The notes under the pieces: model-generated
Database searches by the model: none
What the model saw: only the letters and a program-made list of their open reading frames with translations
Told to the model about the DNA's origin: nothing
Source: Methylobacterium sp. Leaf104
Lineage (GTDB): Bacteria; Pseudomonadota; Alphaproteobacteria; Rhizobiales; Beijerinckiaceae
NCBI RefSeq assembly: GCF_001422885.1
Contig: NZ_LMMZ01000037.1
Location: forward strand, 126,105-190,104
DNA length: 64,000 nt
Reading direction: 5' to 3'
Part shown: piece by piece, positions 35,917 through 59,076 of the stretch
Position numbering within the stretch: the first letter of the stretch is position 1
How the letters are laid out: every line of letters begins with the position of its first letter
Position numbers and translations under genes: made by a program

Positions 35917-37002
35917 ATGACCCCAATTCCTGCAGAGCGTCTCGACGCGATCCTGACGCGCCACGACATCGTCACCGCGACGCTGAGCGCCGGCTCGGCC
36001 GATTCCGAGACCTTCGTGCAGCTGTCGCGCGAATTGTCGGAGCTGGAGGGGGTCGTCGCCGCGATCCACGCCTACCGCGCGGCGGCGCGGAACCTCGCCG
36101 ACATCGAGGCGCTGATCGACGAACCGGGCAGCGATTCCGAGATGCGGGCGCTCGCCGCCGACGAGAAGCCGGAGGCCGAGGCCGGGCTGGAGGCGGCCCA
36201 CCGCGCGCTCCAGCTCATCCTGCTGCCGAAGGATTCCGCCGACGAGAAGAGCGCCATCCTCGAAATCCGCGCCGGAACCGGCGGCGACGAGGCGGCCCTC
36301 TTCGCCGGCGACCTCTTCCGCATGTACGGCAAGTACGCCGATACCAAGGGCTGGAAGGTCGAGGTGATCTCCGAGAGCGAGGGCACCGTCGGCGGCTACC
36401 GCGAGGTCATCGCCGAGGTGAAGGGCAAGGGCGTGTTCGCCCGCCTCAAGTTCGAGAGCGGCGCCCACCGGGTGCAGCGCGTGCCGGACACCGAGACCCA
36501 GGGACGCATCCACACCTCCGCCGCCACCGTGGCGGTGCTGCCGGAGGCGGAGGAGGTCGACATCGTGATCAACGACGCCGACCTGAAGATCGACACGATG
36601 CGTTCCCAGGGCGCCGGTGGGCAGCACGTCAACAAGACGGAATCGGCGATCCGCATCACCCACATGCCGAGCGGGATCGTCATCTTCGTCCAGGAGGAGC
36701 GCTCACAGCACAAGAACCGCGCCCGGGCGATGTCGCTGCTGCGCTCCAAGCTCTACGACGCAGAGCGCACCGCCAAGGACGCGGTCCGGGCCGCCGACCG
36801 CAAGTCGCAGGTCGGCTCCGGCGACCGCTCCGAGCGTATCCGCACCTACAACTTCCCGCAGGCCCGCGTCACCGACCACCGCATCAACCTGACCCTGTAC
36901 AAGCTCGAGGAGGTCCTGGCCGGCGAGGCTCTGGACGAGCTCGTCGACGCCCTCGTCACCGAGCATCAGGCGGAGCTGCTGGCCGCCGAGGGCATGGCCT
37001 GA
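35917..37002 (+). CDS. prfA: Peptide chain release factor 1
   Basis: RF1 ends translation at UAA and UAG. The 361-residue protein has the decoding tripeptide of PxT type in [20 protein letters not shown], and the peptidyl-hydrolysis GGQ at about residues 234-236 in [18 protein letters not shown], followed by the usual basic end. The PDT variant instead of PAT is conservative. prmC, which methylates this GGQ glutamine, starts 24 nt later. Confidence 0.97.
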
Positions 37003-37025
37003 GCCGGGCGGACGGGCAGGAGCCG

Positions 37026-37892
37026 ATGCGTCTCGACCCGGCGCTCAGCCGCACCGATGCCCTGCGGCGCATCACGGAAGCGCTCGCCGCCCACGGCATT
37101 CCGGCGACCGATGCCCGCTTCCTCGTGCTCGACCTCCTGGGGCTCAGCACGACGGACCTGATCCTGCGCGGAAGCACGCCCCTCGGACCGGACGGGGCGG
37201 CCCTGCTCGAAGGCGCGGTCGCGCGTCGTATCGCCGGCGAGCCGGTGGCCCGAATCACCGGGGCCTGGGAGTTCTGGGGCCTGCCCTTCGGGCTCGCACC
37301 CGAAACCCTGGTCCCGCGCGCCGACACCGAGACCCTGGTGGAGGCCGCCCTCGCCCTCCATCCCGACCGGCGGCACCCGCTGCGGGTGCTCGATCTCGGC
37401 ACCGGCTCGGGCTGCATCCTCGTGGCGCTGCTGACCGAATTGCCGAACGCCTTCGGCATCGGCCTCGACCGCTCGCACGGCGCCGTCGTGCAGGCCCGCG
37501 CCAACGCATCGCGCAACGGCGTCGGGCCGCGGGCTTCCTTCGTCTGTGCGGACTGGACCGCGGGTCTCTCCGGGAGCTTCGACCTCGTGGTCTCGAACCC
37601 ACCCTACATCGCCAGCGCGACGATCCAGGGTCTCGACGTCGAGGTGCGGGCCCATGACCCGAGGGCGGCCCTCGACGGCGGCGTGGACGGGCTCGATGCC
37701 TATCGGCGGATCGTCGAGGCCCTGGCGGACGGGTCCTTTCGCCTCGCCCCGGGCGGTGCCCTCGCCTTCGAGGTCGGGTTCGATCAGGCCGAGGCCGTGG
37801 CGCAGCTCGGGTCGCGGGCCGGCCTCGGCTCCTCCGCCATCCATCACGACCTCGCGGGCCATGCCCGTGTGGTGCGCTTCGGCCCGCTCTGA
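37026..37892 (+). CDS. prmC: Peptide chain release factor N5-glutamine methyltransferase
   Basis: PrmC (HemK) methylates the glutamine of the GGQ motif in release factors. The 288-residue protein has an N-terminal helical domain (ITEALAAHGIPATDARFLVL, ARITGAWEFWGLPF), SAM motif VLDLGTGSGCILVALL and the catalytic SNPPYIAS that holds glutamine. It is co-directional with prfA, with a short gap, so the substrate and enzyme are made together. Confidence 0.95.
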   Translation: MRLDPALSRTDALRRITEALAAHGIPATDARFLVLDLLGLSTTDLILRGSTPLGPDGAALLEGAVARRIAGEPVARITGAWEFWGLPFGLAPETLVPRADTETLVEAALALHPDRRHPLRVLDLGTGSGCILVALLTELPNAFGIGLDRSHGAVVQARANASRNGVGPRASFVCADWTAGLSGSFDLVVSNPPYIASATIQGLDVEVRAHDPRAALDGGVDGLDAYRRIVEALADGSFRLAPGGALAFEVGFDQAEAVAQLGSRAGLGSSAIHHDLAGHARVVRFGPL

Positions 37893-38342
37893 GGGCGGAT
37901 GGGCGCGAAAATCCCGCGGGAAACCAGAAAAAACCGCGCGCTTCGGATGCAGGCGGACAAAAAAGCGCTTGTTGCCCCCTCGTCGAACCGCTAGTGTCGC
38001 AGGCAGATCGCGAACGATCCATTAAGATGGATCGTGGTAAGACGGGTTGCGGCTTTGGTCCGCGACGCTCTTAGACGATCTCCCCACGATCAGGCTGGCG
38101 CGCGCGGGCAGAGGCGCAGGAGCTTGGTCAACTTCGTGCCTGAAAACCGAAGGACGCCTGGACGCTCAGAGCGCGCCTTGGTCAACGGACAGAGACGGCA
38201 AGCACGGCGAAATCGATCACGGACACACCGGACCCGGATCACGCGGCGCCAGCGACGAGCCTGACTTGAGGCTGCGTCGTGGCCGCCTGGAACCCGCCGC
38301 ATCATCAGACGCTCCGAGACGAACGAGGGTCAATCGAGACCG
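37893..38342 (+). promoter_or_regulatory. 450-nt leader of the DUF4167 gene: promoter, hairpin, direct repeat
   Basis: No gene is supported here; two short Arg-rich frames look like noise. A plausible promoter is TTGTTG (37969-37974) with CTAGTG (37991-37996), spacing 16. Just downstream is a perfect 9-bp hairpin ACGATCCAT-TAAG-ATGGATCGT (38014-38035). CTTGGTCAAC occurs twice, at 38123-38132 and 38177-38186. If transcription starts near 38003, the mRNA has a leader of about 340 nt, long enough for an RNA regulator. I cannot match it to a known riboswitch. Confidence 0.5.
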
Positions 38343-39575
38343 ATGAGACCAAACCAGAATAGACGGATGCGCGGTCGCAACCGCCCCAAAGGTCCTAATC
38401 CGCTCACGCGTTCCTACGAATCCAACGGACCGGACGTCAAGATTCGCGGTACCGCCCAGCACATCGCCGACAAGTATGCCCAGCTCGCGCGCGATGCGCA
38501 GGCCAGTGGCGACCCGGTCGCGGCCGAGAACTACTTCCAACACGGCGAGCATTATTTCCGGATCATCTCCGGCGCCCAGGAACAGACCCGTCAGCAGGTC
38601 GGGGGCTACGCCCGCGGCTTCGACGACGAGGGTGACGACGACGGCGACGAGGGTCAGAACGCGCCGCAGGGCTACGCCGCCTCGAGCTACGGCGCGAATT
38701 CCTACAACGAGGATTACAGCGATCCGGGCCAGCAGCCCCAGCCACCAGCCTACGAGCCCCGGCAGGACGCGCGCCCGGAGGGCCGTCCCGAGGGATACCG
38801 CCAGGATTACAATCGCCAGGACGCCAACCGGCAGGATTCGAACCGGCAGGATTCCGGCTCCGACAACAACCGCCAGAACCGCCGCGACCGCTTCGCCAAT
38901 CGCGGCGACCGCCCGCAGCGCTTCGACAACCCGCGCGACGGCAATCGTCCCGACTACAACAACAACCGTCAGGAGAACCGTCGCGACGACTTCGGTCGCC
39001 AAGACGGGAACCGCCAGGACGGAAATCGACAGGACGGAAATCGCCAGGACGCGCCGCGCCAGGACTACAATCGGCAGGATTTCCGGGCGGATCAGAATCG
39101 CCAGGACAATTCGCGCCAGGACTATAGCCGGCAAGATCAGCCTCGGCAGGATCAGCCTCGGCAGGACTTCCGTCCGGCTCCGGTCCGCTCCGATGCTCCC
39201 CGTTACGAGAACGGACGTGCGGACGGTCCGGCGAACGAGGCGTCGCGGTCCGAGTTCGGCGGTCAGGAAGCCGGCCGCCAGGACGCACCCCGGTCCACCC
39301 GCGGGAACGACGCGGCGCCCCGGCGCAGCCGGCGCCGCGACGAGCGGGAAGCGGCTCCGGCCGAGGACGTGGCCGCTCTGCCGGCCTTTCTGATGACGCC
39401 GCCGCGTCCGGTCCCGGCGGCCGAGCCGGCCATTCCGTCGGAGCCTCAGGGCGAGACGTCGTCCGCGGCTCAGGACGATGCACCGGCGCCCAAGCCCCGC
39501 CGCCGCCGGCGTGCCCGGTTCGAGGGTCCGGAAGGTGCCGTCGGCGCCGATGATCCGACGCCCGTCACCGAGTGA
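38343..39575 (+). CDS. DUF4167 protein with Arg-Gln-Asp repeats, probable RNA-binding
   Basis: A 410-residue, very hydrophilic protein. Residues 1-90 are the conserved DUF4167 domain: basic MRPNQNRRMRGRNRPKG, then SNGPDVKIRGTAQHIADKYA, AENYFQHGEHYFRIISGAQE. The rest is low complexity, rich in Arg, Gln, Asp and Asn, with more than 20 RQD units at about residues 154-275 (GNRQDGNRQDGNRQD, QPRQDQPRQD). It ends in a basic stretch (KPRRRRRARFEGP). DUF4167 is found near prfA-prmC across alphaproteobacteria; RNA binding and a disordered, condensate-like tail are my inference from composition. Repeat number may vary between strains. Confidence 0.88.
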   Translation: MRPNQNRRMRGRNRPKGPNPLTRSYESNGPDVKIRGTAQHIADKYAQLARDAQASGDPVAAENYFQHGEHYFRIISGAQEQTRQQVGGYARGFDDEGDDDGDEGQNAPQGYAASSYGANSYNEDYSDPGQQPQPPAYEPRQDARPEGRPEGYRQDYNRQDANRQDSNRQDSGSDNNRQNRRDRFANRGDRPQRFDNPRDGNRPDYNNNRQENRRDDFGRQDGNRQDGNRQDGNRQDAPRQDYNRQDFRADQNRQDNSRQDYSRQDQPRQDQPRQDFRPAPVRSDAPRYENGRADGPANEASRSEFGGQEAGRQDAPRSTRGNDAAPRRSRRRDEREAAPAEDVAALPAFLMTPPRPVPAAEPAIPSEPQGETSSAAQDDAPAPKPRRRRRARFEGPEGAVGADDPTPVTE

Positions 39576-39602
39576 GTTCGGGTTCTCCTCGCGAAACCTC
39601 CG

Positions 39603-39627
39603 GAAGCCGCCCCCAAAGGGCGGCTTC
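39603..39627 (+). terminator. Intrinsic terminator after the DUF4167 gene
   Basis: GAAGCCGCCC and GGGCGGCTTC form a perfect 10-bp stem with the 5-nt loop CCAAA and a TTC after the stem, 28 nt past the stop. It also faces the end of the minus-strand gene at 39636. Confidence 0.8.
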
Positions 39628-39635
39628 TTCGCGTT

Positions 39636-40373
39636 TCAGGGTCCGCGCCAGTCGAGGAAGGCTTCGACGCGGTGAACGAGGCGGCGGTGGCGCGCGGCCT
39701 CGCCGAAGGGCGCCAGCTCCCAGGTCCAGCACCGGTCGGGCCGCCCGAGGCGGACCCCGTGCAGGAGATCGAGCCGGTCGATCACCTGCCCGCTCCGATC
39801 TTCCTCGATCTGCTCCACGTCGGTGAGGAGACAGACGCGGGCGCGCAGGCGCGCGAGGCCGTCGAGATGGGCCTGCACGATCCGGCTTCCGAGATCGGGC
39901 GGCACGAAGCCGGGCCGGTCGAGGGGCAGGATGGGCAGTTGCGACAGGAGGTTGGCCGAGACCACGAAGTCGACAGCCTCACCGCCGCACAGGGTCGAGA
40001 GCGGATCGCGCCGATCCGGCACGGCCGAGAGGTCGGCGGTGATCAGCCGGACGTTGGCATGCGCCCGGGCCTGGAGCCTGGCCGGCCAGAGATGGACCGC
40101 ATCCACGAGATGAACCGCTTCGAAGCGCGCCGCGAGCGCGGCGAGCGGGACGTCCTCGAGGAGCCCGGAGCCGAGGACGATCGCGACCCGCCGCCGCCCG
40201 AGCCCCTCGCAGGAGGCCAGTATCGCCGCGCGGGCGGCCGCGAGATGCGGCGCCCAGGCGGCGCGGCAGCGCCGCCCCCGGGACATCAGCAGCACGCTCT
40301 CGCGCAGGTGGCCGCGGCGGCGATGCGCGAAGGGGACCGGGGTGATGAGGAGGTGCAGGAGTTCGACGAGCAT
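39636..40373 (-). CDS. Uncharacterised protein, methyltransferase-like fold possible
   Basis: A 245-residue protein I do not recognise. After a basic N-terminus, VAIVLGSGLLEDVPLAALAA followed by FEAVHLVDAVHLWPAR resembles motif I and the acidic loop of class I methyltransferases, and VDFVVSANLLSQLPIL would fit motif IV. No clear catalytic residues are seen, and the N-terminal 50 residues match nothing I know. It follows a DUF2336 gene by 13 nt on the same strand, so the two are probably co-transcribed. Confidence 0.65.
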   Translation of the reverse strand: MLVELLHLLITPVPFAHRRRGHLRESVLLMSRGRRCRAAWAPHLAAARAAILASCEGLGRRRVAIVLGSGLLEDVPLAALAARFEAVHLVDAVHLWPARLQARAHANVRLITADLSAVPDRRDPLSTLCGGEAVDFVVSANLLSQLPILPLDRPGFVPPDLGSRIVQAHLDGLARLRARVCLLTDVEQIEEDRSGQVIDRLDLLHGVRLGRPDRCWTWELAPFGEAARHRRLVHRVEAFLDWRGP

Positions 40374-40386
40374 CCGCGTTCCGCAC

Positions 40387-41253
40387 TCAGCGCCGGGGCG
40401 GGTTCGGCTCGCCCCCCGGCTGCGCCGACAGGCGCATCACCCGCTGCGCCGTGGTGACGGACAGGGCCTGGAAGGCGGTCTGGATGCCGGCCCACGTCTC
40501 TTGCCGGCGCGGGGGTCCGGGCTTCGTCTGCGGGAAGAGCTTCAGGGTTCCGAAGCCGAAACGGATCGCGCGCAGCAGGAACAGGAGCGGATCGTGATCC
40601 GCGGCCTCGTAGGCGCGCCGAGCGACCTGCGGCGCCTCCTCCGCGGGGCGTGCGACCTCGGCGAGCGCCGCATCGATCTCGCCGTGCCTGATCAGGCCCT
40701 TGATCCGGCGCTCGTCATCCTCGCTCGGGCGCGGCAGCCCCGTCGCGCGTGTCGGAGAGGCCACGACGGCGGAGGTCCTTCCCGCGGGCGCGGCACGCGA
40801 TTCGAGCATGGCCCTCAGGACCGCATCGACCCGCGCCCGCTCGGCGAGGGCGGAGAAGGATGCTCCGGCATTGCCGGCGACGACCTGCACCGTCTCCGTA
40901 TCGCCGCGCGCCGCCAGCACGTCGGTGACGAGATCGGATTTGGCGAGGCGCGGGGAGCGCTGCGGTACCGGCCGGGCCACGGCGATGTCCGCGTCGAGGG
41001 CCAGATCCCGCACCACGGCGCGCGGCGCGTTGCTCAGGTCCGCCGGGCCGTCCGAGAGGGCGGCCCGCGCCGCGCCGTCGGCCGAACGCGTCAGCGGACG
41101 CATCACGGCGTCGAAGGCCTCGACATGCAGTTCGTGCAATCCTTCGGCGCGCTCGGTGAACAGCATCGAGAGACGCCGGAGCATGCGGCCCCCCGGCCCG
41201 GACGTGCCGCGCTGCGCCACCTGCTCGATCTCGCGAACGGGACTTTCGATCAT
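40387..41253 (-). CDS. DUF2336 domain protein (short form)
   Basis: A 288-residue, all-helical, soluble protein. MIESPVREIEQVAQRG, RMLRRLSMLFTERAEGLHEL and AFDAVMRPL fit the start of DUF2336 proteins, and the middle has HEAT-like spacing (ALSDGPADLSNAPRAVVRDL; DADIAVARPV). DUF2336 is an alphaproteobacterial family without known activity, sometimes near sensory genes. I chose ATG 41253 because the longer frame would run into the divergent Pmp3 gene. A second DUF2336 gene is at 61027. Confidence 0.75.
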   Translation of the reverse strand: MIESPVREIEQVAQRGTSGPGGRMLRRLSMLFTERAEGLHELHVEAFDAVMRPLTRSADGAARAALSDGPADLSNAPRAVVRDLALDADIAVARPVPQRSPRLAKSDLVTDVLAARGDTETVQVVAGNAGASFSALAERARVDAVLRAMLESRAAPAGRTSAVVASPTRATGLPRPSEDDERRIKGLIRHGEIDAALAEVARPAEEAPQVARRAYEAADHDPLLFLLRAIRFGFGTLKLFPQTKPGPPRRQETWAGIQTAFQALSVTTAQRVMRLSAQPGGEPNPPRR

Positions 41254-56889: not shown

Positions 56890-59076
56890 GTGAAACCACC
56901 CAACAGCGACGCCAACCGCCCGGGTTCTCCCACGGGTGGCCGGCCGCCCGAGCCCGGCAAGCCCGCCCCGCAGGGCGGCTCCGTTCCGCCGAAGGTCGAG
57001 GCATCGGCCAAGCCGGGTCAGCCCGGCGGCACGCCGGGCACCGCTGAGCCGGTCAAGGAAGGCACGAAGACGGACGCCGTGAAGACGGAAGCCGCCAAGG
57101 CCGCGATCCTCGCGCCCGATGCCGCCAAAGCCGACACCAGCAAGTCCGATGCCGTGAAGCCGGATGCCTCCAAGCCGGACCTGACCAAGCCCGATCCGCT
57201 GGCCGTCGGGTCGGCGAAGACCGATGCGATCAAGGCCGACGCGCCGAAGCCGGATGCCCTCAAGCCCGATCCGCTGAAGACCGACGCACCGAAGGCCGAG
57301 GCACCGAGGGCCGAGCCGTTCAAGGCGGATGCCGCGAAATCCGAGCCGCCCCGCTCCGGCGGTTTCGGCGGAACGCAGCCCGGCGCTCGTCCGGGTCAGG
57401 CCGTGACCGATGGTCCGATCATCGACCTCAAGGCCAAGCGCATGCCGGACCCGGTGCCGCCGGCGAAACCGGCCGGTGCTGCCGGTGCTGCCGGTGCTGC
57501 CGGTGCTGCCGGTGCTGCCGGTGCTGCCGCCGGGATGTCGGGCAAGCCGGTGGACGGCAAGACGCCTGACGGCAAGAGTCTGGACGGCAAGCCCTCTGAT
57601 CAGAAGGGCGCCTCGGAGCCGCCCAAGGCCGGTGGTCCGACGACGCCGCGCATCACCCCGGCTGCCGCGACGGCCCCCGCCGCTTCGTCCGGGGCCGGAT
57701 TCGGCTCTCTCGTCACGGCCGGCCTCCTCGGCGGCGTGGTCGGCGCCGGGTTGCTGTTCGGCGTCGCCCGCAGCGGCCTGATGGCGCCGGGCGAGGATGC
57801 GCGCATCACCGCCCTCGACCAGCGGATCGCGGCGCTCGCCCCCAAGGATGCGCTGGCGGGCCTCGACAAGCGGGTCGCCGCCAACGAGGCCGCCCTCAAG
57901 ACCGTGCCCGAGGCGGTCTCGACCGCGCGTCAGGCCCTCGAGAAGGCGAATGCGGCCCAGGGCGGCGCTCCGGCTCCCGCCGAGGGCGCACCGGCCGCCG
58001 CGGCTTCGTCCGCCGTCCCGGCGGATCTGGTCGCGCGCCTCGACGCCCTCGACCAGCGCGTCTCGGCCCTGCAGGAGGAGCCGGGGCGCGACCAGGGCGG
58101 CGACGCCCGCATGGCGGTGTCGCAGGCGCCCGCGCCGCAGCTCGCCGAGTTCGATCGGCGCCTGAAGGCGATCGAGGGCAAGGTCGATTCCGCACCGAAG
58201 CCCCCCGCGCAGCCCGACCTCGCCCCGAAGATCGCCGCCCTCCAGGGTGACGTCGAGGCCAGGACCAAGGCGAATGCCGAGGCGGCTCAGGCGCTGAGCC
58301 AGAAGGTGGCCGCCCTCCAGCAATCGCTGGAGGCGCGCGTCCAGGCCGCCACCGAAGCGGTCCAGAGCGCGACGCAGGCGAGCGAGAAGGTCGCCGACGC
58401 GAGCAAGGTGCAGGCGGCCGAGGCCGCAAAGGCCGTGGAGCGCCAGCTCCAGGCCCAGGCCGACAAGATCGCCGGCCTCGACAAGGCGGTGTCGGAGCGC
58501 GCCGAGACCGCGACGCTGCAGGCGGCCCTGCGCGTCGTCTCGGCCGACCGGATCGTCACCGCCCTCGACACCGGGGCGCCCTACGCCGACGCCCTCTCGG
58601 CCCTTCGCGGGCTGGAGCCGGGCGACCCGGCACGGCTCAGCGCGGTCGCGGCCTTCGCCGACAAGGGCGCGCCGACGGCCCGGTCCCTCGCGGCCGAGTT
58701 CCGGCCCATCGCCGAGAAGATCGCGGCCAAGCGCCGGGCCGCCCAGAGCAAGGCCGTGGCCGAGACCGGCGACATCGGCACCAAGCTGATGAGCATGGCC
58801 GAGTCGATCGTCCAAGTCCGCCGCGTCGAGGCCCCGGCCGGCGGGAGCGGCGCCAGCGCGCCGGCCCCCGACACCGCGCCGAAGGTGCAGGATGCCCTCG
58901 ACCGCGGCGCGATCAAGGAGGCGGCCGAGGCTTTCGCGGCCTTGCCCGAGGCGGCACGGGCCGAAGCGGGCGAGTTCGGCACCAAGCTGGCCTCCCGCGC
59001 CGCCGCCGGCGACGCGGCCCAGGGCCTGCTCGCCGACGCGTTCAAGGGCCTGCCCGCCACCGGCGCCTCCCGTTGA
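56890..59076 (+). CDS. Mitofilin-like (Mic60-type) inner-membrane protein with long disordered head
   Basis: A 728-residue protein. Residues 1-270 are low complexity: repeated K/P/A/D units (DAIKADAPKPDALKPDPLK) and a perfect Ala-Gly-Ala run. A single membrane helix lies near 275-298 (FGSLVTAGLLGGVVGAGLLF). Coiled coil fills about 310-560 (AQALSQKVAALQQSLEARVQ), and the conserved C-terminal mitofilin domain is at 560-725 (ALDTGAPYADALSALRGLEP; AEFRPIAEKIAAKRRAA). Mic60 homologues in alphaproteobacteria shape intracytoplasmic membranes. It starts with GTG and GGGAG upstream, between hemD and the HemY-like gene. Confidence 0.86.
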   Translation: MKPPNSDANRPGSPTGGRPPEPGKPAPQGGSVPPKVEASAKPGQPGGTPGTAEPVKEGTKTDAVKTEAAKAAILAPDAAKADTSKSDAVKPDASKPDLTKPDPLAVGSAKTDAIKADAPKPDALKPDPLKTDAPKAEAPRAEPFKADAAKSEPPRSGGFGGTQPGARPGQAVTDGPIIDLKAKRMPDPVPPAKPAGAAGAAGAAGAAGAAGAAAGMSGKPVDGKTPDGKSLDGKPSDQKGASEPPKAGGPTTPRITPAAATAPAASSGAGFGSLVTAGLLGGVVGAGLLFGVARSGLMAPGEDARITALDQRIAALAPKDALAGLDKRVAANEAALKTVPEAVSTARQALEKANAAQGGAPAPAEGAPAAAASSAVPADLVARLDALDQRVSALQEEPGRDQGGDARMAVSQAPAPQLAEFDRRLKAIEGKVDSAPKPPAQPDLAPKIAALQGDVEARTKANAEAAQALSQKVAALQQSLEARVQAATEAVQSATQASEKVADASKVQAAEAAKAVERQLQAQADKIAGLDKAVSERAETATLQAALRVVSADRIVTALDTGAPYADALSALRGLEPGDPARLSAVAAFADKGAPTARSLAAEFRPIAEKIAAKRRAAQSKAVAETGDIGTKLMSMAESIVQVRRVEAPAGGSGASAPAPDTAPKVQDALDRGAIKEAAEAFAALPEAARAEAGEFGTKLASRAAAGDAAQGLLADAFKGLPATGASR
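57472..57525 (+). repeat. Six perfect copies of a 9-bp unit
   Basis: GCCGGTGCT is repeated six times in a row inside the mitofilin-like gene, coding Ala-Gly-Ala each time. Because the unit is a multiple of three, copy-number change would alter linker length but not the frame. Confidence 0.95.

Follow-up and report, generated by a model that had tools for sequence, protein, structure and literature searches.

The question raised by this locus, which lies in a 64,000-nucleotide stretch of Methylobacterium DNA (the window), is what the array of Arg-Gln-Asp (RQD) units in the tail of a conserved protein does and which of its properties the cell maintains. Our reading, to which we assign a probability of about 0.4, is that the array forms the middle of a disordered, charge-balanced and Arg-enriched mixed-charge tail, which would be weakly cohesive through its Arg and Tyr residues and would present a conserved LPxFL/poly-Arg end. 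The analysis suggests that the charge pattern of the tail, rather than its exact sequence, is what the cell needs. The features that are discussed below are collected in Table 1.

Table 1. Features of the DUF4167 locus, with positions in the window
Feature	Position	Strand	Remarks
prfA, release factor 1	35917..37002	+	conserved neighbour; PCRF and RF-1 domains
prmC, release-factor methyltransferase	37026..37892	+	conserved neighbour; PrmC_N domain
Promoter-like element CTTGTTG-N14-CGCTAGTGT	37968..37997	+	between prmC and the DUF4167 gene; conserved congeneric upstream blocks, by eye
Putative 5' leader	37998..38342	+	about 345 nt, preceded by the promoter-like element and followed by the ATG
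Covarying leader RNA, model R1	38012..38131	+	hairpin 38017-38021/38028-38032; 8-bp helix 38088-38095/38122-38129
Hairpin GGTC/GACC	38328..38341	+	4 bp, directly 5' of the ATG; sequence nearly invariant
DUF4167 protein gene	38343..39575	+	ORF of 410 aa
Basic N-terminus MRPNQNRRMRGRNRPKGPNPL	38343..38405	+	aa 1-21; M1, R2, R8, R10, N19 and P20 invariant in the window and 49 related loci
DUF4167 domain	38364..38585	+	aa 8-81; PF13763 profile, 111.5 bits; AlphaFold2 mean pLDDT 79.5
Acidic low-complexity linker	38604..38744	+	up to a conserved PQP; net charge averaging -9.1 over 55 congeneric tails
Repeat core	38796..39170	+	three runs of strict RQD with 4, 6 and 5 units (15 in all); 5-aa spacing; charge sign alternating
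LPAFL motif	39378..39392	+	aa 346-350; conserved, after the repeat; local pLDDT rise to about 64
C-terminal poly-Arg KPRRRRR	39492..39512	+	all 16 full-length homologues keep R388 and R389

The folded part of the protein was assigned to DUF4167 (PF13763), with a profile score far above the cut-off of 25 bits; the N-terminal part alone scored 116.8 bits. In substance, this is the conserved domain of 90 residues that a preliminary description had noted, and the protein was also correctly described there as a conserved alphaproteobacterial one. The domain was found in 58 of 59 genomes sampled from the genus, with that of the window among them, in 96 of the 99 genomes of the family sample and in 244 of the 289 alphaproteobacterial genomes of the class sample, while among 14 named control genomes it occurred only in Caulobacter. 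The close relatives that bear names are Methylobacterium and Methylorubrum. The window protein resembles other DUF4167 proteins in its domain match, in the prmC gene upstream and in that there is usually one match per genome at each of the three levels. A second match was observed in six family genomes of other genera (G068, G075, G090, G108, G144 and G145), where it lies elsewhere in the genome in short frames of 67-151 aa. With its 78 positions, the Pfam profile includes neither the tail and its charge pattern nor the leader RNA.

In an analysis of the neighbourhood, 149 of the 159 DUF4167 loci with enough DNA (some genomes being counted twice) had prmC upstream in the same orientation; among the named loci with this arrangement (75), the gap between prmC and the DUF4167 start measures 246-696 nt. 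A prfA match was found nearby in 133 of 160 loci. According to the script's rule, clpB follows within 2.5 kb downstream in 56 of 151 loci, a count that admits at least one locus (L255) with the match upstream instead; among the longer congeneric loci (L088-L122, 35 in number), no downstream clpB was found, and three of these loci extend only a short way in that direction. This prfA-prmC-clpB neighbourhood was not found in the open-licence literature.

The structure of the domain was of little help in assigning a role. AlphaFold2 predicted a beta-hairpin (residues 25-36) that is followed by a helical hairpin (38-55/58-86). The best hit of a PDB sequence-profile search with DUF4167 had an E value of 0.087, and the best Foldseek match to the fold had one of 0.87, with none of the 318 matches at E <=0.001. 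A second look using VIA-align gave Z scores of at most 7.3 to generic helical hairpins (PspA, ESCRT-III, rubrerythrin), and NCBIfam returned no match to the protein up to an E value of 1. Because none of the structure searches gave a telling match, the folded module yields no functional hint, and the searches speak against no particular fold. Within the basic N-terminus, residues 11-21 (GRNRPKGPNPL, window 38373-38405) resemble the eukaryotic UTP23 sensor motif (PF24779) at 12.8 bits, below the cut-off of 15; this likeness was set aside and is probably that of a convergent basic peptide.

Searches of the open-licence literature found no function for DUF4167, which is named there in only 4 papers, each time in a table row, and they found nothing under the presumed model-species locus tags or on related mixed-charge proteins in alphaproteobacteria. 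The words "DUF" and "hypothetical" are absent from the main text of a paper on BR-bodies (PMC12691583). A list of proteins from a Paracoccus PHA-granule preparation places a DUF4167 protein beside ribosomal and H-NS proteins (PMC11150862). As far as that list goes, it at least shows that the protein is expressed there, and the protein may travel with nucleoprotein.

Along the protein, the basic N-terminus is followed by the helical hairpin, the acidic linker, the RQD-rich middle, the LPxFL motif and the poly-Arg end. The disorder that was claimed earlier for the tail is borne out as a prediction, since a full-length AlphaFold2 model from a shallow alignment of 16 rows has pLDDT values below 50 at residues 138-340. 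The composition of the window tail is 16.4% R, 0.3% K and 19.1% D+E, with a net charge of -0.024 per residue. The motif [AGS]LPxF[LIV] was found in 56 of the 57 congeneric tails, and LPxF[LIVM] in 49 of 49 tails from other genera of the family compared with 1 of 41 other class tails; the latter 41 have a median length of 111 aa and are more acidic. Outside the family, the tail is thus shorter, mostly without LPxF[LIVM] (40/41) and rarely alternating in charge, which indicates that a tail of this kind is no family-wide need.

The preliminary description had put the number of RQD units at more than 20, which is an overcount: strict RQD occurs 17 times in the whole ORF and 14 times within 38805-39168, and a looser, overlapping count of R-x-[DE] over the whole ORF gives 34. 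In shuffles of the 329-aa tail with the same composition, the mean number of RQD was 0.7 and the maximum was 5 in 5000. At the DNA level, the two-unit pattern CGNCARGAY-N6-CGNCARGAY (RQDxxRQD) has 14 occurrences in the genome (4.97 Mb), of which the DUF4167 gene accounts for 12, while the reversed pattern that served as a control was found 0 times. Based on these counts, the array is real and largely peculiar to this gene. A sub-threshold Rfam match to an archaeal sRNA inside the repeat (27.8 bits, cut-off 42) was taken as chance. Another repeat-rich ORF lies in the same window at 56890-59076 on the + strand; it encodes 728 aa from a GTG start, contains KADAPKPDALKPD-type Lys/Asp repeats with a perfect 9-nt repeat in 6.4 copies, and its mixed charge is Lys-based, compared with the Arg-based charge of the DUF4167 tail.

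The array could be a by-product of its own DNA, i.e., of in-frame slippage of a GC-rich 15-nt unit under little constraint, and be neutral in charge because each unit is neutral. The gene does contain 15-nt tandem units, and insertions and deletions in the RQD arrays are common between congeneric species. The number of RQD ranges from 5 to 19 and the tail length from 231 to 380 aa in 58 congeneric species (the frame-shifted L089 included); in this comparison of one genome per species, the repeat number differs from one species to another. A phase-variable repeat would have near-identical DNA units and a copy number that differs between strains; what was observed here is a difference between species, and DNA identity at 12 or more of 15 nt in 4 of the 12 pairs of adjacent units that are 5 aa apart. 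The near identity over 12 nt that was claimed for neighbouring units thus applies to these four pairs and fails for the other eight, which match at 7-10 of 15 nt. The third codon positions of adjacent units differ at rates of 0.56 (R), 0.25 (Q) and 0.50 (D), compared with 0.58, 0.22 and 0.49 over all pairs of units. As adjacent units are no more alike than distant ones, most units look old, and fresh slippage was rejected as the main cause: the codons have diverged, while RQD has been kept. Across the congeneric 5-aa arrays, 507 of 525 acid positions are occupied by D or E and 507 of 528 Arg positions by R, while the spacers are highly variable.

What stays constant while the array changes is the net charge. 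In 57 congeneric tails, it averages -7.98 with an SD of only 1.03, compared with SDs of 6.2 for the positive residues, 5.9 for the acids and 35 aa for the length; the numbers of positive and acidic residues are correlated at r = 0.987, and the D and E counts are anticorrelated (-0.49). For these charge and array counts, L089, in which the C-terminal frame changes, was left out of the 58 tails, although it was retained in the ranges given above, and the division of the tail into three parts also leaves out L012 and L112 (55 tails). In L089 (the 3' part of the DUF4167 ORF) and L274, the frame seemingly shifts near the C-terminus and the usual end is lost, through either an error of sequencing or a true change. 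The part before LPxF in the 49 tails from other genera of the family has a net charge of -6.9 (SD 1.43, r = 0.991). The lock is looser further out: 68 of 73 named tails from other genera have a net charge of -10.9 (SD 3.7, r = 0.964), a set that leaves out L274, L290, L302, L304 and L311 because of a cut at the contig end or an apparent frame shift (L290 being doubtful). The disordered regions of two other proteins of the same genus served as partial controls, as the anchor expressions could cut the region from 21 IF2 loci and 13 RNase E loci, out of 30 each, and two of the RNase E tails overran the locus; their net charges have SDs of 2.36 and 3.95, respectively. Relatedness fails to explain the lock, since in disjoint nearest pairs the rms change in net charge was 0.87 in the genus (28 pairs), compared with 5.07 if positive and acidic changes were independent, and 2.69 in the family (24 pairs), compared with 18.67.

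Nine disjoint pairs that were drawn from the 22 closest congeneric pairs show how the charge is kept. Arg was identical at 1.00 (to two decimals) of 970 positions, i.e., at least 99.5%, and R and K taken together at 0.994 of 1002. Acids were identical at 0.901 and kept their class at 0.991, with D/E being the commonest exchange (52), while uncharged residues were identical at 0.874. Of 40 indels, 39 were charge-neutral, compared with 19.8 expected from segments of the same length in the same regions, and none of 20000 simulations reached 39; this test has to be read with the caveat that the alignment of repeats can favour gaps at neutral segments, and 14 of the 39 neutral indels hold no charged residue. 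Independently of any alignment, the net charges of the two members differ by 0 in six pairs and by 1 in three.

An RQD unit contains one Arg and one acid, copies are gained and lost with the net charge staying the same, and charged positions are kept while spacers drift. It can be held against selection on charge that the duplication of whole neutral units would give neutrality even if net charge were not selected for. A conserved net charge is also frequent among disordered regions, having been reported for more than 50% of those analysed in PMC6634968. The observed neutrality goes beyond whole 5-aa units, since charged neutral indels of 2, 3, 4, 6, 8 and 12 aa also occur. Moreover, Arg, whose codons are mostly CGN here, is kept while the spacers change, and other lineages follow the same charge grammar with other units (EPREPRE, FQGQNRE, RQERGE and NRDNRD). 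Taken with the diverged codons of the units, these observations make it unlikely that the array is a mere by-product of slippage.

The distribution of charge along the tail bears on its function. Alternation beyond that of shuffled sequences (z > 2) was found in 57 of 57 congeneric tails, in 32 of 49 family tails and in 2 of 40 other class tails, of which 12 were blocky (z < -2); one of the 41 class tails, with fewer than 12 charged residues, was left out of this test. For the window tail, z was 3.7, and its repeat core reached an alternation of 0.865, compared with a mean of 0.504 and a maximum of 0.731 in 2000 shuffles. The disordered region of IF2 was neither alternating nor blocky (0 of 21); the congeneric RNase E tails were blocky in 13 of 13 cases (z < -2; from 30 loci). 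The congeneric DUF4167 tails, which all alternate, thus do not belong to the charge-blocky class of RNase E.

This contrast weighs on the earlier proposal of an RNA-binding RQD tail that drives RNA-protein condensates, a role comparable to that of the RNase E tail in BR-bodies. The tail is indeed Arg-rich and predicted to be disordered, the N-terminus is basic and conserved, and the company of ribosomal and H-NS proteins in the Paracoccus list would fit. The two tails share their organisms, their length, their Arg-richness and their disorder; however, the tail of RNase E is blocky with a net charge of -35, while that of DUF4167 alternates and has a net charge of about -8. The phase separation of BR-bodies is ascribed, in the text of PMC10412687 that deals with it, to the Arg-rich charge blocks of RNase E together with RNA. 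According to the passages of PMC9324279 on synthetic peptides, no phase separation of alternating (DR)12 was seen, even at high concentration, whereas RNA entered the droplets of blocky D12R12, the only one of the two for which such uptake is shown there. An alternating and net acidic tail is a poor candidate for an RNA-driven condensate, and in the light of the published alternating Arg/Asp peptide the proposal that the tail drives such condensates is not supported; we consider it unlikely. RNA contact, if there is any, would be made through the basic N-terminus and the terminal poly-Arg rather than the RQD units.

The same observations would suit an inert neutral spacer, i.e., an extended polyampholyte tether that keeps LPxFL/poly-Arg at a distance from the domain without any cohesion. 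The neutrality and alternation of the tail, the conserved motif beyond it, the range of lengths (196-382 aa in the 49 tails from other genera of the family) and the (DR)12 result in the same part of PMC9324279 all agree with such a tether. A spacer would, however, need neither the retention of Arg at about 100% nor the near absence of Lys (mean 0.5% in congeneric tails), nor would it need aromatics, which make up 5.5% of the congeneric tails, compared with 0.6% in IF2 and 1.4% in RNase E (the other class tails have 1.7%), and are thus about nine and four times commoner than in the two control regions. We therefore regard the inert tether as a somewhat unlikely explanation. The number of aromatics follows that of Arg in the genus (r = 0.60) and not in the family (r = 0.01), and among six low-GC relatives the tail contains more Arg than Lys in four and more Lys than Arg in two.

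The retention of Arg and the aromatics suggest weak protein-protein cohesion over an inert spacer. In the cohesive-tail reading, selection would keep the tail neutralised and evenly mixed, and the tail would thereby stay extended and avoid firm binding to RNA or ribosomes. Through its Arg and Tyr/Phe residues, it may make weak multivalent protein-protein contacts, either with itself or with other Arg-rich partners, while the tail would hold the conserved C-terminal LPxFL/poly-Arg motif away from the folded helical-hairpin domain. That cohesion proceeds through Arg-Tyr contacts is possible on the basis of composition. A precedent may be seen in the eukaryotic R-MCDs (PMC9324279, PMC12629991), which, in the parts of these papers that describe them, share with the tail low complexity, a preference for Arg over Lys, the pairing of Arg with Asp, near neutrality and alternation; the tail differs in being bacterial, in its Q/N/Y spacers and in being net acidic overall, and the likeness is drawn from sequence. 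In HeLa cells, as a passage of PMC9324279 reports, alternating (DR)50 still reached nuclear speckles, and this targeting depends on Arg with Asp rather than on Lys or Glu.

A side finding concerns the long leader of the gene. For the window and 28 other congeneric leaders, which were chosen from 58, a common fold was obtained, and in its 8-bp helix each of the 8 pairs has both partners replaced in at least one sequence. Covariation in these 29 leaders was 0.445 compared with 0.282 in shuffled alignments (0 of 500 as high) and collapsed once the partners were slid; of five measures, only the number of pair types lay within the shuffles (28 of 500 as high). It should be borne in mind that related sequences can beat such shuffles without structure. 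The R1 model, with 120 positions from 28 of the 29 rows (L113 was left out), matched strongly in 50 of the 59 congeneric genomes, each time just upstream of DUF4167; 22 of these genomes are independent of the model and 28 supplied its sequences. In four congeneric genomes, R1 also matched weakly at another place (E 1.7e-4 to 5.7e-4), and the nine negative ones include the genome in which DUF4167 was not found. In 95 genomes of other genera of the family, there were only 5 weak matches (E 2e-4 to 9e-4). Among 51 distinct R1 sequences, whose alignment was fitted to the model and so leans towards it, covariation was 0.482 compared with 0.304 (0 of 500 as high), with unremarkable pair types (98 of 500).

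Neither in window positions 36900-40500 nor in the 14 named loci (of 80) that were scanned did any known Rfam leader family reach its threshold. R1 is a candidate cis-regulatory RNA. The hairpin before the ATG has no covariation evidence because its sequence is nearly invariant, and a TAAG hairpin, which occurred in 28 of 65 congeneric upstream regions and in 0 of 163 others (49 family, 73 named and 41 class), was set aside. In other genera, a promoter-like element and a long leader also precede DUF4167, up to about 480 nt upstream; in L271, L273 and L293 (Bradyrhizobium, Tardiphaga) and in L303 and L310 (Mesorhizobium), the leader blocks are shared within the genus and, by eye, are unlike those of Methylobacterium. 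In the case of RNase E, the leader of its own mRNA feeds back on the amount of the protein.

As regards disordered regions of the Ste50 type, we know of none with an RQD-like repeat array. Their likeness to the tail is that net charge is conserved as the sequence diverges, and the difference is that they come from a yeast signalling protein, as described in the corresponding section of PMC6634968. Conserved net charge in disordered regions, to the extent that this source covers it, and eukaryotic R-MCDs are thus already known. A wider claim would be that of a bacterial R-MCD system, in which selection fixes the net charge of the tail of a near-universal alphaproteobacterial protein and leaves the repeat count free, giving a non-RNA, Arg-Tyr cohesive scaffold that is distinct from BR-bodies; in this genus, a dedicated structured leader of its own mRNA could feed back on the amount of the protein. 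In this full form, we consider the claim a long shot.

DUF4167 matters because it is present in most of the sampled alphaproteobacteria, usually beside translation-termination genes. Its tail amounts to a remarkably clean experiment of nature: the repeat count and length vary within the genus, the unit itself varies between genera, and the net charge is nearly constant. Whether the grammar of charge, and not the sequence, is what counts can be put to a direct test in a bacterial cell that also contains the blocky RNase E tail as a contrast, and the leader RNA offers a second, independent handle on regulation.
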